Shown in pieces: positions 1,620 through 27,226 of a DNA stretch of 34,533 nt. Source of the DNA: an uncultured bacterium (GTDB lineage Bacteria; Bacillota; Clostridia; Lachnospirales; Lachnospiraceae); contig CANOLZ010000010.1 of assembly GCA_947567075.1 (NCBI GenBank), forward strand, positions 1 through 34,533, written 5' to 3'. The position numbers were made by a program, and so were the translations under genes. The notes beneath the pieces were generated by a model. The model was given only the letters and a program-made list of their open reading frames with translations, was not told the origin of the DNA and made no database searches. The first letter of the stretch is position 1. Each line of letters starts with the position of its first letter.

Positions 1620-2175
1620 GCAAAAGGTAGAAGAAGGGGTTAGGCTTCTTTTAGAAGGGCTTGGAGAGAAGCTGGACAGAGAAGGGCTTTTGGAAACTCC
1701 GTCAAGAATAGCCAGAATGTACGAGGAGATTTTTGGGGGAACAATGGAAGATCCAAAAGAGCATTTGAAAAAGACCTTTCACCTTCCCAATAATGAATTA
1801 ATCGTAGAAAAAGATATTTGTTTTCATTCTATGTGCGAGCACCATATGATGCCCTTTTTTGGAAAGGCTCATGTAGCCTACATACCTGACGGCAAGGCAG
1901 TGGGACTAAGTAAGCTAGCTAGAACCGTTGATACATATGCAAAGAGACTGCAAGTTCAAGAAAGGATGACAGCCCAGATTGCAGATGCCCTTACAGAGCA
2001 TTTGCATCCAAAGGGAGTGGCTGTTTTTATTGAGGCAGAGCATATGTGTATGACAATGCGGGGAATTAAAAAGCCAGGAAGCAAAACAGCAACTTTTGTG
2101 ACAAGAGGAGAATTTGTAAATAATGACCAGTTACAGAAACGGTTTTTTTTAATGCTGAGAAGGAATGAAGGGTGA
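1609..2175 (+). CDS. folE: GTP cyclohydrolase I
   Basis: This enzyme converts GTP to 7,8-dihydroneopterin triphosphate, the first step of folate synthesis. Visible family motifs are [19 protein letters not shown], with a zinc-ligand Cys and His, and [28 protein letters not shown] supplies the second zinc cysteine. The length of 188 aa is typical. AAAGGAG sits about 9 nt before the ATG. The gene starts inside the end of folC, and its TGA overlaps the GTG start of the HD-domain gene, which points to translational coupling. It is the committing enzyme of the operon. Confidence 0.97.
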
Positions 2176-2666
2176 AGGAAGATAGAATAGAGAGAATTTG
2201 GAGCCATCCCAAATTCCAAAAAGTGGAAAAGGAGCTTTTAGAGTGGGAAAGGGAAAGAACATTTTGCAGACATGGAGTAGAACATTTATTAGATGTAGCC
2301 AGAATTGCTTATATTTTAGTATATGAAGCCCATAAGGAGAAAGAGTATCCAAAGGATGTTGTCTATGGGGCAGCTCTCCTCCATGATATTGGACGGCTAA
2401 GACAATACAAAGATAGGACACCTCATGAAATAGAAAGCGCCAGATTAGCTAAAGAAATTTTAAAAGACTGTGGTTATTCTAAAGAGGAGATAGGGCTGAT
2501 GACAGAAGGGATTGCATCCCACCGTCTTATAGAAGTAGAAAAGGAAGAGAATTTAAAGGGATTTTTGTACAGGGCAGATAAACTGTCAAGGAATTGTCCC
2601 TTCTGTCTGGCAAAAAAGGAATGCAACTGGGAGAAAGAAAAAAAAAATACATTTTTATTATATTAA
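2172..2666 (+). CDS. HD-domain phosphohydrolase in the folate operon
   Basis: A small (164 aa) metal-dependent HD-superfamily protein. [19 protein letters not shown] supplies the first His, LLHDIGR is the HD motif, and a later TPHEIESA segment could add a ligand. The C-terminal stretch [11 protein letters not shown] has three closely spaced cysteines, possibly a metal site. The start is GTG overlapping the folE stop (GTGA), with AAGGA 7 nt upstream. Its substrate is unknown. It sits between folE and folP, and no Nudix-type dihydroneopterin triphosphate pyrophosphatase is present. A role in dephosphorylating that intermediate is therefore conceivable, but this is inference from context. Confidence 0.85.
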
Positions 2667-2693
2667 AAGGACAAAAAAGGAGAGGTATTTATC

Positions 2694-3506
2694 ATGATGA
2701 AAATAGGTTCAAAGGTTTTTGACACGTATAATAAAACATATATTATGGGAATTTTAAATGTTACTCCAGACTCCTTTTCGGATGGAGGGAAATATAATAC
2801 CATAGATGCCGCATTACGCCATGCAGATAAAATGTTGGAAGAAGGGGCAGACATATTGGATATTGGAGGAGAGTCAACAAGGCCTGGGCATGAACAAATA
2901 TCCGAGGAAGAGGAAATAAAAAGAGTTGTGCCAGTTATTTTAGAAGTGAAGAAAAGATGGGATATACCCATTTCTTTGGACACATACAAAAGTAAGGTGG
3001 CTAAGGCAGGGATTGAAGCAGGAGCTGACTTAATCAATGACATTTGGGGGCTGAAGTATGATGAAAATATGGCTCGTGTAATTGCAGAAAATAAGACTGC
3101 CTGTTGCCTTGCACACAATCGGAAGGAAATAGGCAGTCAAAAATTGATGAGAGACATGGTAAAAGACTTAGGCGAGACAATTCGTCTTGCAGAGGAGGCA
3201 GGCATTGAGGAGGAAAAGATTATTTTAGATCCAGGAATTGGATTTGGGAAAACCTACGAGATGAATTTAGAAGCTATTCGTTCCCTGGAAGTTCTCCATA
3301 ACTTTGGATATCCTTTGCTGTTAGGAACTTCCAGAAAATCTGTCATTGGAAATACCCTTGATTTACCTGTGGAAGAAAGGTTGGAAGGAACATTAGCTAC
3401 TACAGTAATCGCTGTTATGAAGAGATGTACTTTTGTAAGAGTCCATGACATTTTACAAAATAAAAGAGTCATTCAGATGACAGAAGGGATTCTTTACAAA
3501 AAATAA
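2694..3506 (+). CDS. folP: Dihydropteroate synthase
   Basis: The enzyme condenses 6-hydroxymethyl-7,8-dihydropterin pyrophosphate with p-aminobenzoate, and it is the sulfonamide target. The signature motifs are all present in order: GILNVTPDSFSDGG near the start, DIGGESTRPG around residue 61, DPGIGFGKT around 182 and LLGTSRKS around 212. The length of 270 aa is normal. AAGGAGAGG lies upstream of two adjacent ATG codons (2694 and 2697), so the start may be one residue later. It lies 27 nt after the HD-domain gene and 20 nt before folB-folK. Confidence 0.97.
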   Translation: MMKIGSKVFDTYNKTYIMGILNVTPDSFSDGGKYNTIDAALRHADKMLEEGADILDIGGESTRPGHEQISEEEEIKRVVPVILEVKKRWDIPISLDTYKSKVAKAGIEAGADLINDIWGLKYDENMARVIAENKTACCLAHNRKEIGSQKLMRDMVKDLGETIRLAEEAGIEEEKIILDPGIGFGKTYEMNLEAIRSLEVLHNFGYPLLLGTSRKSVIGNTLDLPVEERLEGTLATTVIAVMKRCTFVRVHDILQNKRVIQMTEGILYKK

Positions 3507-3526
3507 AGAAGGGATGAACCTTTGCC

Positions 3527-4348
3527 ATGGATCAAATAAAAATTAAAAATTTAGAAGTATATGGGAATCATGGAGTGTTCCAGGAAGAGACAAAGCTTGG
3601 TCAGAAGTTCCTCGTATCTGCTATTTTGTACACAAACATAAGGCAGGCGGGACAGACAGATGAATTATCCAAATCCATTCACTATGGAGATATTTGTGCA
3701 GAAATAGATAGATTTTTGAGAAGGAACACATATAAACTAATAGAGACAGCAGCAGAGAAACTGGCAAGACATTTGCTTATCCATACAGATAGATTGGAAA
3801 AAATTCAGTTGGAAATAAAAAAACCATGGGCTCCTATTGGACTTCCATTGGAAACAGTGTCAGTGGAAATACTGCGGGGATGGAACAGAGCATTTATTGC
3901 CTTTGGCTCCAATTTAGGGGATAAAGAATCTTATTTAAACAGAGGGATTGGAAAAATTAAGGAAAGGGAGGACTGTAAGGTGGAAAAGATATCAAATTTT
4001 CTTCATACAGAGCCTTATGGGAAAACAGATCAACCTTCCTTTTTAAATGGAGTTTTAGAAATGAAAACATTGATGACTCCTTGGGAACTTCTTGACTGCC
4101 TTCATAAAATAGAGGAGGAAGAAGGGAGGGAGAGAAAAGTAAGATGGGGCCCAAGAACATTGGACTTAGACATTTTATTTTATGGGAATGAAGTAATACG
4201 AACAAAAGAGCTGACTATCCCCCACATAGACATGGCAAACAGAGACTTTGTATTAGCTCCTATGAAGGAAATCGCTCCGTACTTTTGTCACCCTTTAAGT
4301 GGAAAGACAATAGAGGAAATGTTTATGGAACGAAAAGGAAAGAAGTAG
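3527..4348 (+). CDS. folK: Bifunctional dihydroneopterin aldolase / HPPK
   Basis: Two consecutive folate enzymes are fused. Residues 1 to about 117 are FolB, with KNLEVYGNHGVFQEE at the start; it cleaves dihydroneopterin. From about residue 120 it is FolK (HPPK), which pyrophosphorylates the hydroxymethyl pterin. FolK is marked by FIAFGSNLGDKESYLN, a central region ending RWGPRTLDLDILFYG, and the closing R-x-FVLAPM segment. The protein has 273 aa. FolB-FolK fusions are known in other bacteria. It completes pterin synthesis except for dihydroneopterin triphosphate dephosphorylation and dihydrofolate reductase, neither of which is encoded in this operon. Confidence 0.95.
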   Translation: MDQIKIKNLEVYGNHGVFQEETKLGQKFLVSAILYTNIRQAGQTDELSKSIHYGDICAEIDRFLRRNTYKLIETAAEKLARHLLIHTDRLEKIQLEIKKPWAPIGLPLETVSVEILRGWNRAFIAFGSNLGDKESYLNRGIGKIKEREDCKVEKISNFLHTEPYGKTDQPSFLNGVLEMKTLMTPWELLDCLHKIEEEEGRERKVRWGPRTLDLDILFYGNEVIRTKELTIPHIDMANRDFVLAPMKEIAPYFCHPLSGKTIEEMFMERKGKK

Positions 4349-4400: not shown

Positions 4401-4952
4401 ATGTCAATATTTCTTGCATTTATGATTGGCATCGCCGTTAATTTAGATAATGCTTTAATTGGGATGAGTCTTGGTGTCAGAGGTCAGAAAATTACAATTC
4501 GTTCCAATGCTTTGATTAGTCTCACAACGGGAATCTGTGCCCTGGCGTCCACCTATGGGGCAAGGATGGTGACAGGGCGTTTCATGGCATATGTGAATAT
4601 TATCGGCGCTGTTTTCATGATTTCCTTTGGTGTGTTTTGCTTTGGAAAAGATTTTTTTTCCAAGGAATCCAAAGAAAATATGGAAGAAAAATTTATGAAC
4701 ATGGAAGGTAAGGAAGTTTTTTTTCTTGGATTGCTTTTAGCTGTAAACTGCATTCCGCCAGCATTTAGTGCAGGAATTGTAGGAATTTCTTCTTTGTTAG
4801 TAGGATTTTTTTCTGCTTTTTTTTCTTATATCAGTTTATATTTTGGAAATAGAATGGGAAAGAGGCTTATAAAGTATTCTTTAGTCCGTTTTCTCTCCCC
4901 TCTTTCTTCGGTGTTTCTTGTAGTGATTGGGATAATGGAGTTATTTGTATAG
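4401..4952 (+). CDS. YtaF/MntP-like membrane protein (DUF204-type, possible manganese exporter)
   Basis: A 183-aa integral membrane protein with about six hydrophobic segments. The first helix carries IAVNLDNALIGMSLGVRG, which resembles the Asp-containing motif of the MntP/YtaF family, and a related NCIPPAFSAG segment occurs in the fourth. The two halves look like a tandem repeat joined by a charged loop (around residues 85-105: KESKENMEEKFMN). YtaF is a sporulation-linked paralogue and MntP exports Mn2+; which of these applies cannot be told from sequence. It has no promoter of its own that I could see. Its ribosome site lies within the hairpin at 4358-4395. Confidence 0.75.
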   Translation: MSIFLAFMIGIAVNLDNALIGMSLGVRGQKITIRSNALISLTTGICALASTYGARMVTGRFMAYVNIIGAVFMISFGVFCFGKDFFSKESKENMEEKFMNMEGKEVFFLGLLLAVNCIPPAFSAGIVGISSLLVGFFSAFFSYISLYFGNRMGKRLIKYSLVRFLSPLSSVFLVVIGIMELFV

Positions 4953-4961
4953 TTAAAAATG

Positions 4962-4991
4962 CCCACGCCAAAGTCCTTTCTTTGGCGTGGG
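4962..4991. terminator. Bidirectional rho-independent terminator between convergent genes
   Basis: CCCACGCCAAAG (4962-4973) and CTTTGGCGTGGG (4980-4991) form a perfect 12-bp GC-rich stem with a 6-nt loop. On the minus strand it is followed at once by CATTTTTAACT, a good U-tract serving the DUF5050 gene. On the plus strand AATTTTTT follows several bases later and can serve the YtaF/MntP-like gene. Confidence 0.85.
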
Positions 4992-5003
4992 TAAACAATT
5001 TTT

Positions 5004-6050
5004 TCAACGCTCGGATTTTGCCTGTTCTTGACGGGCAGCTTCCATAGCTGCTGTAAAGGAGGTAACATTGATAGTACCGTTAACTGGAGTGCGGTAAAGC
5101 TCTGTTCTAGAGTTAAATGCATGAAAGTAGGCAAAGGTAGAGGTTAAATTAATATTAGAAAAGTTTCCATTCATAACAATCTCAGGATTTAAACCGTCCA
5201 AATCCATTCGTTTCATAGCTGGTTCAGATGGATCGTTTTTTTGATAATAAATATAATTTTGTCCCACATTGAAATTGTCCACTCGGTCATCAGTAAGTTT
5301 TTCTGTGGAATGCCCGGAAAGCTCCATGCGGTATAGACGGTAATTGTCATCGGCATTCATGTAATAAATATATCCCCCTTGGATAATGGGAAACCATATA
5401 TTTCCTTCCGCTACACTGCTGACTGTGTTGTTATCCACATGGAAGGCATATAACCCTTGATTATCTGGGGTATTGCTAAAATAAACAATGCCATTTTGGA
5501 TGCATGCAGGATTTATCTCATAATCCACGACCATCTCGTTATTTTTTCCCCTTAAATCCGATTTAAATAAACTCATTCCTTCGTTGCCCTTAAAGCGTTG
5601 ATAGAGTAAATAATTTCCTGAAAGGCTGATAATCTGGGTTAAGTCTTTAGAAAAACAGTAGGCATTGCGTCCTTCTTTTGTAGTGCGGTATACCCCAGCC
5701 ATATTTTGGGATAAAAAGGAAAGCATATTGTTAGAATTGGCATTTTCCTGACAAAAGTAGAGGTGATCCCCTGCTGCATTAATGTATTTTACACTGGCAT
5801 GTACAAGTTTTTTCATTTGGGTTCCATCTGGGTTCATGGAATAGAGACAGCCGTTGTCATAAGGATTACTAAAATAGACGACACCATCATCCTCGCAAAA
5901 ATAGCCGCTGTTATGTAAATTGCCAGCCGTGTTTCCTATGGTAGATGGATCATTTGCCTTGATTTTCCCAGCGAAGAAAAAATTATAAATACAAAATGCA
6001 ATAAATAGTACAGCTAAAATGGATGTAATCACTGTTGCTTTTTTTCCCAT
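5004..6050 (-). CDS. Membrane-anchored DUF5050 protein, beta-propeller-like
   Basis: The 348-aa protein begins MGKK and then has one hydrophobic segment (about residues 6-27), with no obvious cleavage site. It is probably an N-terminally anchored extracytoplasmic protein. The rest is a series of repeats of the type xxVYFSNPYDNGCLYSMNPDG, NGIVYFSN and GYIYYMNADDNYRLYRM, typical of DUF5050 and propeller-like folds. No catalytic motif was recognised and the function is unknown. AGGAAGGAG lies 8 nt before the chosen ATG. An upstream ATG in ATGAGCC is too close to the ribosome site. The gene is monocistronic, with its own promoter and terminator. Confidence 0.8.
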   Translation of the reverse strand: MGKKATVITSILAVLFIAFCIYNFFFAGKIKANDPSTIGNTAGNLHNSGYFCEDDGVVYFSNPYDNGCLYSMNPDGTQMKKLVHASVKYINAAGDHLYFCQENANSNNMLSFLSQNMAGVYRTTKEGRNAYCFSKDLTQIISLSGNYLLYQRFKGNEGMSLFKSDLRGKNNEMVVDYEINPACIQNGIVYFSNTPDNQGLYAFHVDNNTVSSVAEGNIWFPIIQGGYIYYMNADDNYRLYRMELSGHSTEKLTDDRVDNFNVGQNYIYYQKNDPSEPAMKRMDLDGLNPEIVMNGNFSNINLTSTFAYFHAFNSRTELYRTPVNGTINVTSFTAAMEAARQEQAKSER

Positions 6051-6084
6051 GGCTCATACTCCTTCCTATTTTTACATGATTATA

Positions 6085-6113
6085 ATTATAAATCTTTAAG
6101 CTGAGAACTGCAA
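6085..6113 (-). promoter_or_regulatory. Sigma-A promoter of the DUF5050 gene
   Basis: Read on the minus strand, TTGCAG (6113-6108) is followed after exactly 17 bp by a perfect TATAAT (6090-6085). This is about 35 bp before the start codon at 6050. Confidence 0.65.
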
Positions 6114-6146
6114 TAAAAAATAGAAAAATTCTCTTTCATAAAGGAA

Positions 6147-6173
6147 TTGCAGATAGGAACGGTTTGTTATAAA
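6147..6173 (+). promoter_or_regulatory. Candidate promoter of the pheA-to-HAD run
   Basis: TTGCAG (6147-6152) and TATAAA (6168-6173) lie 55 bp before pheA, but the spacer is 15 bp, shorter than ideal. It is the best candidate in the 177-bp divergent gap. No leader peptide or attenuator was recognised. Confidence 0.3.
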
Positions 6174-6227
6174 ATGAAAAAAAGAGATATTTATGTTGTA
6201 AAAATTGAGAAAGGTATAGGATAGAAA

Positions 6228-7355
6228 ATGGATTTATTGGAATTCAGAGATGAAATTGATAAAATTGACAGGGAAATTGTGAGATTATATGAAGAAAGAA
6301 TGAAAATAAGCCGTCAGGTGGCAGAATATAAAATAGCAAATGGAAAAAAGGTATTGGATAAAGAGAGAGAGATGAAAAAGTTAAATGGAGTAAAGGAAAT
6401 GGTTCATAACGATTTTAACCGTTTTGGTATAGGGGAGCTTTTTGAGCAAATAATGTCCATGAGTCGGAAGCTTCAATATCAAATATTGACAGAAAAAGGG
6501 GTTTTTGGAAAACAGCCTTTTATGGAAGTGGATCATTTAGAGGTGAAAGGGGCAAGGATTGTATTTCCCGGTACAGAAGGAGCTTATTCCCAAGAGGCTA
6601 TGGATAAGTATTTTGGAGAGGGAATCAATAGTTTTCATGTCGATAAGTTTCGAGAAGCTATGGAAGTTATTGAGGAGGGAAGGGCTGATTTTGCCATTCT
6701 GCCCATTGAAAATTCACAGGCAGGTATTGTCCATGAAATATATGATATGCTTGTAGAATTTGAAAATTATATAGTGGGAGAGCAGATCATACCTATTGAG
6801 CACTGCCTTTTAGTTCTTCCTGGAACAAAATTAGAAGATATTCAGACAATCTATTCCCATCCCCAGTCTTTGATGCAAAGTTCCAAGTTTTTGTATGGAC
6901 ATAGTTCCATACGCCAAGTAGGAATGGAAAACAATGCTTTTGCGGCAAAGAAGGTGATGGAAGACGGGGATAGAAGCCAGGCAGCCATAGCCAGCGCCAA
7001 GGCAGGAGAAGTTTATGGACTTGAGGTTTTGGAAAGAGGAGTGAACAATAGTACAACTAATTCTACCCGTTTTATCATTGTCACCAACCAAAAAATATTT
7101 TGTAAAGATGCAAAAAAAATGAGCATTTGTTTTGAAGTTCCTCATAAAAGCGGCTCCTTATATCATATGCTTTCCCATTTTATTTATAACCATTTAAATA
7201 TGAATCGTATTGAGAGCCGTCCCCTCTTAGACAGAACATGGGAGTATCGTTTTTTTATTGATTTTGATGGAAACTTAGGGGATGGGGCAGTAAAGAATGC
7301 CTTAAGGGGACTTAGGGAAGAGGCAGCAAACATGAGAATTTTAGGTAATTACTAG
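6228..7355 (+). CDS. pheA: Bifunctional chorismate mutase / prephenate dehydratase (P-protein)
   Basis: It makes phenylpyruvate from chorismate via prephenate. Residues 1 to about 85 are an AroQ-type chorismate mutase (LLEFRDEIDKIDREIVRLYE, then KISRQVAEYK). The prephenate dehydratase domain runs from about 108 to 285, with FPGTEGAYSQEA, LPIENSQAGIVHEIYD and NSTRFIIV, the last carrying the catalytic Thr-Arg-Phe. The C-terminal ACT domain has the ESRP motif (IESRPLLDRTWEYRFF) of phenylalanine feedback control. The length of 375 aa is typical. A modest ribosome site (AAGGTATAGGAT) precedes the ATG. It is first in a run that continues into the DUF815 gene after 15 nt. Confidence 0.95.
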   Translation: MDLLEFRDEIDKIDREIVRLYEERMKISRQVAEYKIANGKKVLDKEREMKKLNGVKEMVHNDFNRFGIGELFEQIMSMSRKLQYQILTEKGVFGKQPFMEVDHLEVKGARIVFPGTEGAYSQEAMDKYFGEGINSFHVDKFREAMEVIEEGRADFAILPIENSQAGIVHEIYDMLVEFENYIVGEQIIPIEHCLLVLPGTKLEDIQTIYSHPQSLMQSSKFLYGHSSIRQVGMENNAFAAKKVMEDGDRSQAAIASAKAGEVYGLEVLERGVNNSTTNSTRFIIVTNQKIFCKDAKKMSICFEVPHKSGSLYHMLSHFIYNHLNMNRIESRPLLDRTWEYRFFIDFDGNLGDGAVKNALRGLREEAANMRILGNY

Positions 7356-20738: not shown

Positions 20739-21362
20739 ATGGTTAAAGTAAACAGAATGGTTCTTGGACCAGTGGAGACAAACTGCTTTTATGCCTTTGT
20801 GGAAGGAAATAAAGAGGCGCTTGTCTTTGATCCGGGAGATCAAGGAGAAAGGGTATATGAAAGGCTGAAAGGAGAAGGACTTATTGTAAAAGGGATTTTA
20901 CTCACCCACGGCCATTTTGATCATATTTCTGGTGTAGAAAAACTAAGGGCATTATCAGGAGCTAAAGTGTACGCCTCAAAGGAAGAAAAAGAAATTTGTG
21001 AGAGACCAGAGCTAAACTGTTCCAGCCAGATGGGAAGGCCAGTAAAAATTCAGGTGGATTTTTTCCTAAAAGATGAGGAGATATTGGAAATAGCAGGGAT
21101 GAAAATCAAAACTCTCTATACGCCAGGACACACAAAAGGAGGAGTATGCTATTATATAGAGGAGGAAGGGATTCTTGTAAGCGGCGATACTCTTTTTCAA
21201 GACTCAGTAGGAAGAACAGATTTACCTACAGGAAATATGGGAACTCTCGTCCGTTCTATTAAAGAAAGGATTTTTGTACTCCCTGATAACGTACAAATAT
21301 ATCCAGGCCATGGAGATGTCACTACTGTGGCCCATGAAAAAGCCTATAATCCTTTTGTATAA
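20739..21362 (+). CDS. MBL-fold metallo-hydrolase (glyoxalase II-like)
   Basis: A 207-aa cytoplasmic metallo-beta-lactamase-fold hydrolase. The metal motif is LTHGHFDHISG, with further ligands in TPGHTKGGV, SGDTLF and the C-terminal YPGHGD. The family includes hydroxyacylglutathione hydrolases, but low-GC anaerobes often lack glutathione, so the substrate is open. AAAGGATGGAAGAAG precedes the ATG. It lies 18 nt after rel and 13 nt before hemZ. Confidence 0.88.
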   Translation: MVKVNRMVLGPVETNCFYAFVEGNKEALVFDPGDQGERVYERLKGEGLIVKGILLTHGHFDHISGVEKLRALSGAKVYASKEEKEICERPELNCSSQMGRPVKIQVDFFLKDEEILEIAGMKIKTLYTPGHTKGGVCYYIEEEGILVSGDTLFQDSVGRTDLPTGNMGTLVRSIKERIFVLPDNVQIYPGHGDVTTVAHEKAYNPFV

Positions 21363-21375
21363 AAAGGAGAGGGCA

Positions 21376-22791
21376 ATGCTTTTAATTACAATGAATCAAG
21401 AACAATATGAATATGACGTTCATTCTCTTGTAAAAGCTTTTTATCCCTTAGAGGAAGTCCAAGTAAAAAAAGAGGGGGAACTTCCTTTTATAGATATAAA
21501 GTACAAGGAGGCCTCCATTTCTTTTACAATGAAAAATCAAAAAAGAGAGATTAAGGTAAATAGGGAAGACAGGATAGGGACGAAAAATAAGTTGAAAAGA
21601 GAGCTATATGAGTTATTATCTCAGGAAACGAAAAAAAACCTTCCTTGGGGAACATTGACAGGCATCCGTCCAGTGAAGCTTACTATGAAGCTTTTGGAGG
21701 CTGGGAAGGAGGAGAGGGAGGTAAGAGAATATTTAAAAGAAAATTATTTGCTCTCCAATAAAAAATTAGAACTTTCCCTTGAAATTGCTAAGAGGGAGAG
21801 ACAAATGGTAAGTCAGTTTCATAGATTGGATGGATACAGCCTATACATAGGAATTCCTTTTTGTCCTACAACATGTCTATACTGTTCTTTTCCCTCCTAT
21901 CCTATTCATCAATGGAAGGAAAGGGTGAAAGACTATCTGGAGGCTTTAGAAAAGGAAATAAAGGGTACATGGAGCATTTTTAAAGAAAAAAAGCTGGATA
22001 CCATTTATATAGGGGGAGGAACGCCTACATCTCTTGAGCCAGAGGAGCTTTCTTGTTTGCTATCCATGGTTGAGAAGCATTTTCGTATAAAGGAAGCCTT
22101 AGAATTTACTGTAGAGGCAGGACGTCCTGACACAATGACAAGGGAGAAACTTAAGACCCTTAGGGAATATGGCATGGAGAGAATATCCATTAATCCCCAG
22201 ACAATGGAGGAGAGCACTTTAAAGTTAATTGGAAGAACCCACAGTAAGGAGCAAGTAAAAGAAGCCTTTTTCCTAGCAAGAGAGCTGGGTTTTTCTAATA
22301 TAAACATGGATTTGATTTTAGGTCTTCCAGGAGAAGGAACAAGAGAGGTAAGGAAGACGATAGAAGAAGTGAAAAAAATGGATCCTGATAGTTTAACAGT
22401 CCATTCTTTAGCAGTAAAGAGAGCTTCCAAATTAGGGCAGTGGATGGAGGAGCATCCAGAACAGCTTCTACGAAATAATGAGGAGATGATGGATATTCCT
22501 TATGAAGGGGCAAGGCAGATGGGACTTTTGCCCTATTATTTATACCGGCAAAAAAATATAGCAGGAAATTTTGAAAATGTTGGTTATGCAAAGCCAGGGA
22601 AATATGGTCTGTATAACATTGTGACAATGGAAGAAGTGCAGAGCATAGCAGCTTTTGGGGCAGGAAGCATCTCAAAACGGGTTTATCCAGATGGAAAAAT
22701 TGAACGGTGTGAGAATGTAAAAGATGTTGCCCAATATATTGAGAGAATTGAGGAAATGATAGAAAGAAAGCGTGTATTGTTTCGTGATTAA
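21376..22791 (+). CDS. hemZ: Coproporphyrinogen dehydrogenase HemZ-like radical SAM protein
   Basis: A 471-aa radical SAM protein of the HemN/HemZ group. The cluster motif CPTTCLYCSF (CX3CX2C) lies near residue 166. IYIGGGTPTSLEPEEL and an MDLILGLPGEG segment follow, as in HemN relatives. The N-terminal 150 residues match the HemZ pattern, ending LPWGTLTGIRPVKL. Whether it acts on coproporphyrinogen here is uncertain, since no other heme gene is present. The start is ATG 21376 with AAAAAGGAGAGGG 5 nt upstream; the frame continues upstream only into the MBL gene. The expected downstream neighbour hisS is displaced by about 3.2 kb of accessory DNA. Confidence 0.88.
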   Translation: MLLITMNQEQYEYDVHSLVKAFYPLEEVQVKKEGELPFIDIKYKEASISFTMKNQKREIKVNREDRIGTKNKLKRELYELLSQETKKNLPWGTLTGIRPVKLTMKLLEAGKEEREVREYLKENYLLSNKKLELSLEIAKRERQMVSQFHRLDGYSLYIGIPFCPTTCLYCSFPSYPIHQWKERVKDYLEALEKEIKGTWSIFKEKKLDTIYIGGGTPTSLEPEELSCLLSMVEKHFRIKEALEFTVEAGRPDTMTREKLKTLREYGMERISINPQTMEESTLKLIGRTHSKEQVKEAFFLARELGFSNINMDLILGLPGEGTREVRKTIEEVKKMDPDSLTVHSLAVKRASKLGQWMEEHPEQLLRNNEEMMDIPYEGARQMGLLPYYLYRQKNIAGNFENVGYAKPGKYGLYNIVTMEEVQSIAAFGAGSISKRVYPDGKIERCENVKDVAQYIERIEEMIERKRVLFRD

Positions 22792-23109: not shown

Positions 23110-24657
23110 TTATAAAATGCCATATTCTTCAAAGAGTTTATTTCTATAATTTGTATCTTCCAAAACATGGTTCAAATCATCAAGGCGGTTTTCTGATAGG
23201 AGTATTTTGATTAAAGAAGCCATCTGTTTGTTGCCTTCCTCACGCCTTAATTTAATATTTTCTCTGTCCCGCTGTAACAAAGTCATATACTCAACTTCCA
23301 GTTTTTTTTGTTTTATTTCGGTTACTCTTTTATGGATCTCTTTTATAAGTAAGCTGCTAGACTGCGCTGCGAAAGCATCGGTAGTATTTTCCACATAGGA
23401 GAGGAACTCCAGCATTTCCATATCCACATCATCCATGACTCCTTTAGTATTCAGGAAAATCTTAGTGGTGCCATCTCCCAATGTAAGAGAGGGGTTCTCC
23501 CTGCATCGGTTTTCAAAGGTGTAAATGTGCTGTCTGACAGAAAAGGGATCAAAGGTGCAGATGAAGATAATGAAAGTTTTCTTCAGATCTTTGTAGCTCT
23601 CTCCAGCAGAAATTTGGTCTGAGTCAATGTTACTTTGGTAAAATCTTGATCTTCTGGGAAGCTCCTTTTTCCTTCCCCGCTGCATTTCTACATTGTAAAC
23701 AGTGCCTTGATCATCTTGGACGTAGACATCAAGACGGATGCCCTTGCCATCAAGGAGGACATCGATAGTCTTCTGGGTGACAGTATCTGTAACGTTCAGC
23801 TGTCCAATGAGCAGGGGAGACAGAGGATTATGGAGCTTATTGTTTTCAAATGCCTTATGTGGGTTTTTGTTTGCATAACAATATTTACAACTGTTCATAC
23901 AAGTATCGTAGGCGCCAATATCACGACTTTCGATGCAATGGCAGCCCTGCCTCATTCCTTTGTGTTTCAGATTCTTGAATGTTATGCCATTTGCCTGTCC
24001 AAGAATATCAAGTGTTATACATCCTGATGAATGGATGCCATAAGAGGTAAAACTTCCATTTGTTCCACAAGTTTGAATAGAAATATTCTGCTTCTTTGCA
24101 ATGGTTCCAAGTCCTTTGGCAAGTATTCTCTTATCCTCCTTAGTAAGAGGGATGAGCTCAGGCATAGTTGTCTTTAGCTTTTTATACATCTCAACAAAGC
24201 TGAAAATGCAGCGGTCAATGTAGGGAGCAAGTATATTTGCCATATATGAAAAGGTTTGTAAATGCATTTCAACTGTGTACTTTTCGGTTAAGAGTATGGG
24301 ATCATATCTCCAAGCAATACGTTTTTTGCCAACCTGCTTTGACAGTTTTATAAGAGTTTCCATACTCTCATCAATAGATGGAGCGCCTGGTTCTGTATCT
24401 TTTTTGTAGGCGGTAATCGTGTAATGGAAATAGGTATGGAATTTGTCCGTGATTTCCTGGAGCCTTGGTAAAATCGGTTTATAGTTCTTAGAGCAGAACA
24501 CAACGCAATCCACCTTATCTGGCGTCAGTTGATAGCGGTTTACCTTGTTGGGAAACAGGGGATTACGGGTTAAAACATAGCCCTCATGAAATCTGTTTAA
24601 AAGCCAGTCAGTATAATACTGAACAGTGTCAGTTCTTGCGCCAGTGTTAATAATCAT
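23110..24657 (-). CDS. DUF1848 protein fused to Rpn/PD-(D/E)XK transposase-type nuclease
   Basis: A 515-aa chimera. Residues 1 to about 287 are DUF1848, running from MIINTGARTDTVQYY through a radical-SAM-like cysteine region, GCHCIESRDIGAYDTC then MNSCKYCYAN. This gives CX3CX2C at C253, C257 and C260. From about residue 290 it becomes the catalytic part of the Rpn/PDDEXK_2 family: IRLDVYVQDDQGTVYNVEMQ with D310, E324 and Q326, then FICTFDPF, IYTFENRC and FLNTKG. About 50 N-terminal residues usual for Rpn proteins are missing, as is the DUF1848 tail. There is no stop or frame change at the junction (near nt 23790). It overlaps marR by 4 nt, with AGGAGGGGAGCTT before its ATG. Confidence 0.85.
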   Translation of the reverse strand: MIINTGARTDTVQYYTDWLLNRFHEGYVLTRNPLFPNKVNRYQLTPDKVDCVVFCSKNYKPILPRLQEITDKFHTYFHYTITAYKKDTEPGAPSIDESMETLIKLSKQVGKKRIAWRYDPILLTEKYTVEMHLQTFSYMANILAPYIDRCIFSFVEMYKKLKTTMPELIPLTKEDKRILAKGLGTIAKKQNISIQTCGTNGSFTSYGIHSSGCITLDILGQANGITFKNLKHKGMRQGCHCIESRDIGAYDTCMNSCKYCYANKNPHKAFENNKLHNPLSPLLIGQLNVTDTVTQKTIDVLLDGKGIRLDVYVQDDQGTVYNVEMQRGRKKELPRRSRFYQSNIDSDQISAGESYKDLKKTFIIFICTFDPFSVRQHIYTFENRCRENPSLTLGDGTTKIFLNTKGVMDDVDMEMLEFLSYVENTTDAFAAQSSSLLIKEIHKRVTEIKQKKLEVEYMTLLQRDRENIKLRREEGNKQMASLIKILLSENRLDDLNHVLEDTNYRNKLFEEYGIL

Positions 24658-25115: not shown

Positions 25116-25140
25116 AAAGGTTCTCCTTTTAAAATATTTG

Positions 25141-25160
25141 ATAGTCTTATATTTGACTAT
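25141..25160. promoter_or_regulatory. Probable MarR operator
   Basis: ATAGTC (25141-25146) and GACTAT (25155-25160) are perfect inverted repeats with an 8-bp AT spacer. The element lies directly downstream of the -10 of the marR promoter, over the expected transcription start, where a bound dimer would block initiation. Confidence 0.65.
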
Positions 25161-25189
25161 AAATTAGCATAAGTATTCTTCAGTGTCAA
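25161..25189 (-). promoter_or_regulatory. Sigma-A promoter of the marR-DUF1848 operon
   Basis: Read on the minus strand, a perfect TTGACA (25189-25184) is followed after 17 bp by TAATTT (25166-25161). TGC before the -10 gives an extended -10. The start codon of marR is about 45 bp further downstream. Confidence 0.75.
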
Positions 25190-25975: not shown

Positions 25976-27226
25976 ATGGCCTTAAGCAAAAAGCCAATGA
26001 CAGGGATGAAAGATATTCTTCCTGCTGAGATGCAAATGCGGGAATATGTGATCCGCTTAATAAAAGAAACCTATGGGACATTTGGGTTTTCTTCCATAGA
26101 AACACCCTGTGTGGAACATATAGAGAATTTGACAAGTAGACAGGGAGGAGAAAATGAAAAACTTATATTTAAAATATTAAAAAGAGGAGATAAGCTGAAC
26201 GTGGGGACTGCAGAAGATGAAAAAGAGCTGGTAGACAGCGGTCTTCGCTATGATTTAACCCTTCCCCTTTCCAGATATTATGCGCAACACAAAAATGACC
26301 TTCCTATGCCTTTTAAAGCCCTTCAAATAGGAAGTGTATGGAGAGCGGACAGGCCTCAAAAAGGGCGGTTTCGTCAGTTTACCCAATGTGATATTGATAT
26401 TTTAGGGGAGGATTCCTCCCTTGCTGAAATAGAGCTTATTTTGGCAACAACTACATTATTAGGAAAGCTGGGATTTCAAAATTTTAAGGTTCGTCTCAAT
26501 GATCGGAGAATATTGAAGGCCATGGCCGCTTACAGTGGTTTTCCTGAAGAGAAGCTGGATCTTGCCTTTATTATTTTAGACAAATTGGACAAAATAGGTT
26601 TAGACGCAGTAGCCAGGGAATGGAGAGAGGCAGGATTTTTAGAAACTGCTGTGGAGACATACATGGATCTCATAAAGAGCCTTACTGTGGAGAAAAAGGG
26701 ACTTGCCTATCTAAAAGAAAAGCTGGGAGAATATTTAGAAGAAGAGGTTTATGAATCTTTAGACTGTATTATGGATAGTGTGGAGAAAGTAAAAAGGACT
26801 CCTTTTCAAATGGTGTTTGATCCTACCCTTGTTAGGGGAATGTCTTATTACACAGGTTCTATATTTGAGATAGAAATGGAAGAACTGAATAGTTCCGTTG
26901 CAGGGGGAGGACGCTACGATAAAATGATTGGAAAATTTACTGGAAAAGATGTAAGCGCCTGCGGTTTTTCCATTGGATTTGAGAGAATTATTACGATTTT
27001 GCAGGATAGGGGATTTAAAGTACCTGTAAAAGCCAGGAAAAAAGTATATCTTCTGGAAAAGGGAATGGACAGAGAAACAATGTGCCAAGTGATGAAAATG
27101 GCAGGGAAAGAAAGAGAAGAAGGGGCTGATGTCCTTGTGGCACAGATGAATAAAAATAAAAAATTCCAGAAAGAGCAGCTCATGAAAGAAGGATACGAAG
27201 AGTTTAAAGAATTTTTCAATAAATAA
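25976..27226 (+). CDS. hisS: Histidyl-tRNA synthetase
   Basis: This class II enzyme charges tRNA-His. Motifs in the 416-aa protein are GMKDILPAEM at the start, motif 1 around FSSIETPCVEHIEN, RYDLTLPLSRY, motif 2 GSVWRADRPQKGRFRQFTQC, histidine-binding LVRGMSYYTGSIFEIEM and motif 3 GFSIGFERI. The histidine-binding motif reads RGMSYY where many bacterial enzymes have RGLDYY, which suggests a distinct HisRS subtype. AAAGGAAAGGAG lies before the ATG. It precedes aspS by 13 nt. Confidence 0.96.
   Translation: MALSKKPMTGMKDILPAEMQMREYVIRLIKETYGTFGFSSIETPCVEHIENLTSRQGGENEKLIFKILKRGDKLNVGTAEDEKELVDSGLRYDLTLPLSRYYAQHKNDLPMPFKALQIGSVWRADRPQKGRFRQFTQCDIDILGEDSSLAEIELILATTTLLGKLGFQNFKVRLNDRRILKAMAAYSGFPEEKLDLAFIILDKLDKIGLDAVAREWREAGFLETAVETYMDLIKSLTVEKKGLAYLKEKLGEYLEEEVYESLDCIMDSVEKVKRTPFQMVFDPTLVRGMSYYTGSIFEIEMEELNSSVAGGGRYDKMIGKFTGKDVSACGFSIGFERIITILQDRGFKVPVKARKKVYLLEKGMDRETMCQVMKMAGKEREEGADVLVAQMNKNKKFQKEQLMKEGYEEFKEFFNK

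Follow-up and report, generated by a model that had tools for sequence, protein, structure and literature searches.

Substitutions D11A, D63A, E82A and Q84K in Escherichia coli RpnA each abolished recombination, toxicity and SOS induction (PMC5350276). RpnL is blocked by RpnS, a product encoded within rpn genes, and one rpn gene of C. difficile makes RpnS too (PMC10327210). Rpn genes also readily undergo horizontal transfer, and they insert without defined ends (PMC10327210). For DUF1848, the second family met at the locus described here, no paper naming it or the term 'radical SAM mobile pair' was found in the literature searched.

The window, meaning the whole stretch of 34,533 nucleotides that was analysed, is contig 10 of a gut bacterium's assembly of 2.29 Mb. 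Because this assembly is in 161 contigs and an estimated 79% complete, the genome is almost certainly metagenome-derived. It alone represents its genus, and the named relatives closest to it, judged by DUF1848, come mainly from Lachnospiraceae and elsewhere in Clostridia. The features of the locus are as follows.

23110-24657, reverse strand: chimeric open reading frame of 515 aa, DUF1848 (1-295) followed by an N-terminally truncated Rpn (296-515)
23773-24657, reverse strand: nearly complete DUF1848 part, residues 1-295 (full PF08902 model; AlphaFold pLDDT mostly 82-97)
23770-23778, reverse strand: junction T294-Q295/K296 (ACCCAG/AAG), inside sequence common to both parent families
23113-23772, reverse strand: Rpn/PDDEXK_2 part without its N-terminus, with D310, E324 and Q326 retained (TIGR01784, 87.8 bits; core pLDDT 31-41)
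23113-23223, reverse strand: candidate RpnS-like internal product of 37 aa from M479, behind GAGGAAGG (by analogy with PMC10327210)
24654-25115, reverse strand: MarR-family regulator with a 4-nt overlap with the DUF1848 start (the gene pair recurs in other loci)
25116-25181, reverse strand: promoter/operator-like region before marR, TTGACA and ATAGTC-N8-GACTAT (sequence match only)
21274-22791, forward strand: hemZ-like gene, left flank of the insert (extent as listed for the open reading frame; the true start may be later)
25976-27226, forward strand: hisS-like gene, right flank of the insert (adjoins hemZ in relatives)

The chimeric frame contains no internal stop, and its 515 codons all read as amino acids. 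Residues 2-262 match the Pfam DUF1848 model PF08902 over its entire length (positions 1-262 of 262; 325 bits against a cut-off of 30.5). Residues 302-376 match PDDEXK_2 in Pfam, the match beginning only at model position 50, and the NCBIfam Rpn model TIGR01784 covers residues 276-477 with 87.8 bits, passing the family cut-off of 52.1. Both family assignments (325 and 88 bits) are beyond chance. An earlier note on this DNA had described one open frame uniting two unrelated families, and the frame and the Pfam and NCBIfam matches bear this out. The same note had placed the loss of the DUF1848 tail near residue 287; the loss is confirmed and the position is not, as DUF1848-like sequence runs to T294-Q295.

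What was lost on the DUF1848 side is visible from approximately 105 homologues read to their stop codons, which terminate at 292-324 aa. Relative to these proteins, the fusion is typically short of 9-29 C-terminal residues, among them those of a conserved Q-K-S-[FYW] motif (Q in 96/105, S in 94/105, F/Y/W in 95/105). This tail, with its stop at ∼300-324 aa, is replaced in the fusion after Q295, and QKTI stands where homologues have QKSF. The possibility that all DUF1848 homologues share the C-terminus of the fusion was tested, and 0 of the ∼105 do. A second DUF1848 gene start, 46% identical and cut by a contig end, is present in the same genome (contig 25:25070-25276).

Past residue 287, comparison of homologues gives the usual DUF1848 tail as ...SPLLxGxLxxxDTVTQGAQKSFxxx. 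The fusion matches it up to ...TDTVTQ and then continues with KTIDVLLDGKGIRLDVYV, which is Rpn sequence. Since several Rpn homologues have ...(D/T)TQKT(I/L)... ahead of that segment, and the DUF1848 tail has the same Thr-Gln, either parent can carry these two residues at the join. The DNA of the window reads GATACTGTCACCCAG up to the join and AAGACTATCGAT after it; the equivalent DNA is GATACTGTAACCCAAGGT in a DUF1848 relative (L034) and GATACCCAGAAAACT in an Rpn relative (L119). The simplest account, drawn from these relatives rather than from the actual parents, would be a 6-nt microhomology join within ACCCAG.

The Rpn part begins near K296. Compared with intact homologues, 47-64 residues are missing from its N-terminus, where the earlier note had given ∼50. 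The missing segment contains a DDF motif that is nearly invariant in the family, and the second Asp of this motif aligns with D11 of E. coli RpnA (MG1655 sequence). The fusion consequently has no complete PD-(D/E)XK core with the D11-equivalent Asp, and the DDF is found in the intact relatives. The catalytic D and E-x-Q are in place as D310, E324 and Q326, whose retention the earlier note had correctly stated. Judged by comparison with RpnA, which shares only 19% identity with the Lachnospiraceae Rpn protein L117, the retention of these three residues would be insufficient for activity. The Rpn part is therefore probably an inactive nuclease, because it has lost the D11 equivalent together with the first helices and strand.

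Structural models are consistent with this. The fusion was modelled with AlphaFold from an alignment (A3) with both parts in register. Mean pLDDT over 10-residue blocks was mostly 82-97 in the DUF1848 part, with dips to 77 and 63, 31-41 in the nuclease core (residues 301-410), and 78-88 in the final 45 residues (from 471), which form C-terminal helices. For the intact relative L117, with about as many Rpn rows in the alignment, the model has a helix-helix-strand-strand-strand core (block means of 82-92 for residues 11-50, 44 for 51-60 and 56-86 for 61-140). This contrast agrees with a fold lost along with the first helices and strand, as support rather than proof, and the low core pLDDT may partly be due to a shallow alignment. 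A fold search with the intact Rpn model gave weak matches to McrBC (Z 4.4, rmsd 3.8, 115 aligned), Shedu (Z 4.3, rmsd 4.3, 122 aligned) and MspJI (Z 4.2, rmsd 4.1, 128 aligned), which would fit a PD-(D/E)XK core without being specific. Sequence searches against solved structures yielded nothing useful.

The DUF1848 part may be related to radical SAM enzymes. When its model was re-aligned with VIA, the top 20 rows were all radical SAM enzymes (Z 9.0-10.7), with MqnE as the top match (Z 10.7, rmsd 4.3, 197 aligned), and biotin synthase (Z 10.1, rmsd 5.3, 193 aligned) and spore photoproduct lyase (Z 9.6, rmsd 3.4, 175 aligned) among them. Residue 1 of the model pairs with chain positions ∼70-170 of the matched enzymes, downstream of their N-terminal cysteine motif. 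A Cx3Cx2C motif lies at residues 253-260 of the DUF1848 part, and because it is C-terminal, a permuted order is implied. These models suggest that DUF1848 is a circularly permuted radical SAM barrel, a lead rather than proof. Identity with 'radical SAM mobile pair A' (TIGR04471) was rejected, since the DUF1848 proteins tested fail that model, as does the genome. The PADLOC model PDLC03815 'RTasDUF1848' (DRT defence reverse transcriptases) matches residues 1-265 with 128.8 bits, and no reverse transcriptase was noticed among the open reading frames between 18.4 and 30 kb of the window.

In eight relatives hemZ and hisS lie side by side, 12-135 bp apart in six and ∼0.6 kb apart in two; in the window, the marR-DUF1848-Rpn block is inserted between them. 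Apart from the copies in the window itself, the marR-DUF1848 pairing is found in 41 loci, and operator-like TAGTCAAATATTAGAC precedes marR in many relatives, the window copy carrying small changes. The earlier note had held promoter, operator and marR to be intact. This stands for the sequence itself (TTGACA, ATAGTC-N8-GACTAT and the 4-nt overlap), while a generic promoter scan detected sites no more numerous than in shuffles.

Of 74 close relatives with enough sequence, 33 carry a radical SAM gene behind DUF1848 on the same strand; an Fpg/MutM DNA glycosylase gene follows in 25 of 69. The radical SAM gene of locus L045 scores 444.6 bits with the model for 'radical SAM mobile pair protein B' (TIGR04470), above its cut-off of 410, and the Fpg/MutM copy of L086 was checked with Pfam and NCBIfam. 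One or both of these genes are present in about half of the close relatives, and the window has neither. In the source genome no close mobile pair B was found (best match 31% identity), and no match to Fpg was found in this incomplete assembly. A recurrent cassette of marR, DUF1848, sometimes a nitroreductase-like gene, mobile pair B and Fpg/MutM is exemplified by L038:665-4409, where the gene between DUF1848 and pair B is nitroreductase-like as judged by eye. It occurs also in L045, L048, L058, L059, L080, L171 and others, with a patchy distribution in Clostridia and beyond. From its gene content, this cassette looks like a mobile DNA-repair module.

The full DUF1848-Rpn architecture was sought in overlapping sets of related genomes, namely 145 relatives, 398 genomes of the phylum and, separately for each part, 397 of the family. 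Among the matches listed in ∼840 distinct genomes, 80 further loci, plasmids and phages, the two parts occurred separately and were never joined, so that no second fusion was seen; viral contig scans with either part returned no relatives. A diverged fusion among weaker matches is still conceivable. Two near cases were observed. On the reverse strand of contig 17 of genome G765 (2023-3557), an intact DUF1848 gene of another branch is followed after ∼130 bp by an Rpn gene truncated at its 5' end, the two being unfused. In locus L110, an internally deleted Rpn pseudogene immediately precedes DUF1848, both on one strand (4887-5425 and 5723-6637). Rpn fragments thus do come to adjoin DUF1848, which fits accident better than design.

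The preferred explanation, to which we assign a probability of about 0.7, is a private chimeric gene that arose by illegitimate recombination, with DUF1848 possibly working and Rpn dead as a nuclease. A private recombination product is favoured because no second case was found and because a segment shown by experiment to be essential in RpnA is missing from the Rpn part. The earlier note had offered a recent insertion artefact or a new domain architecture; the evidence favours such a private product and speaks against a new architecture. In this history, a horizontally mobile marR-DUF1848 cassette occupies the space between hemZ and hisS, and the 3' end of DUF1848 would have been joined to the inside of an Rpn gene by non-homologous recombination at the common ACCCAG. 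MarR control of the chimera would persist. The DUF1848 barrel would still fold and possibly work, with QKTI substituting for the C-terminal QKSF, and the Rpn remnant would fold poorly, as a tail whose end is an RpnS-like helical domain. The chimera is either recent or tolerated, and is not a conserved architecture. A counterpoint to this reading is that the Rpn part is without visible decay. It stays open across 220 codons and departs at 3 of 43 otherwise invariant or nearly invariant columns of the retained region (most other rows depart at 0-2, one at 12), so long neglect is not clearly indicated, and the join may be recent. The relatives are too distant at synonymous sites for dN/dS.

That the assembler created the join, with the two genes separate in the organism, is unlikely, even if a metagenome-derived assembly of this kind and a fusion seen only once lend it some weight. 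Because hemZ and hisS are neighbours in relatives, a gross misassembly is improbable, and because both outer flanks belong together, an assembly origin of the fusion would require a local misjoin within the insert. Against such a misjoin, the ∼6 nt common to both sides of the join are too short for the usual k-mer misjoin, G+C is similar on either side, the genome holds no other strong copy of either part, and the reading frame is maintained across the join.

Somewhat more doubtful again is that selection keeps the C-terminal RpnS-like part, either as the M479 product or as a tail for oligomerisation, with the capacity to neutralise a related Rpn. The C-terminal helices modelled at pLDDT 78-88, an internal ATG (M479) with a good ribosome-site-like sequence upstream, and the precedent of RpnS in rpn genes, including that of C. 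difficile, argue for it. However, no intact Rpn to be neutralised was found in the incomplete genome, the reading rests on a single case, and it leaves the open nuclease core unexplained.

A functional new architecture, in which the DUF1848 barrel stands in for the initial elements of the nuclease fold to give a MarR-regulated, two-domain, DNA-acting enzyme, is less probable still. Both parts are in frame without stops, the D310/E324/Q326 residues are retained with few departures at conserved Rpn columns, and DUF1848 relatives adjoin a DNA glycosylase; yet an essential N-terminal Rpn element is gone, AlphaFold fails to build the nuclease core, and no second genome with the fusion appeared among the matches listed. 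It is very improbable indeed that the protein works as two domains with the permuted radical SAM barrel supplying the missing Rpn elements and DNA cleavage coupled to a MarR-regulated repair cassette.

As a private chimera with a damaged second part, the fusion itself matters little beyond being one example of a chimeric gene from a short-homology join, and it serves as a warning that no new architecture should be named from one metagenome-derived genome. The intact parent cassette has spread horizontally and is MarR-controlled, and its second radical SAM protein and Fpg/MutM suggest a module for DNA repair or DNA modification; no paper on it was found in the literature searched. With its probable permuted radical SAM DUF1848, this cassette is a better lead than the fusion.

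The locus compares with known systems as follows. The fusion is up to 82% identical over residues 1-290 to the DUF1848 proteins of the marR/mobile pair B (TIGR04470)/Fpg cassettes, with which it also shares marR ahead, an operator-like motif, and the Cx3Cx2C near the C-terminus; it differs in having Rpn sequence for the Q-K-S-[FYW] tail and in lacking both mobile pair B and Fpg downstream. Among the Rpn family nucleases (TIGR01784/PF12784), it is up to 70% identical to single-domain Lachnospiraceae Rpn and retains D310 and E324-x-Q326 as well as the C-terminal segments, whereas the 47-64 N-terminal residues bearing the D11 equivalent, first helices and first strand are missing and the remainder sits behind another protein. 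Relative to E. coli RpnA, its PD-(D/E)XK residues align with D63/E82/Q84, whereas the D11 equivalent is absent. Like the RpnL/RpnS toxin-antitoxin genes (PMC10327210), it has a candidate internal start for an RpnS-like end.
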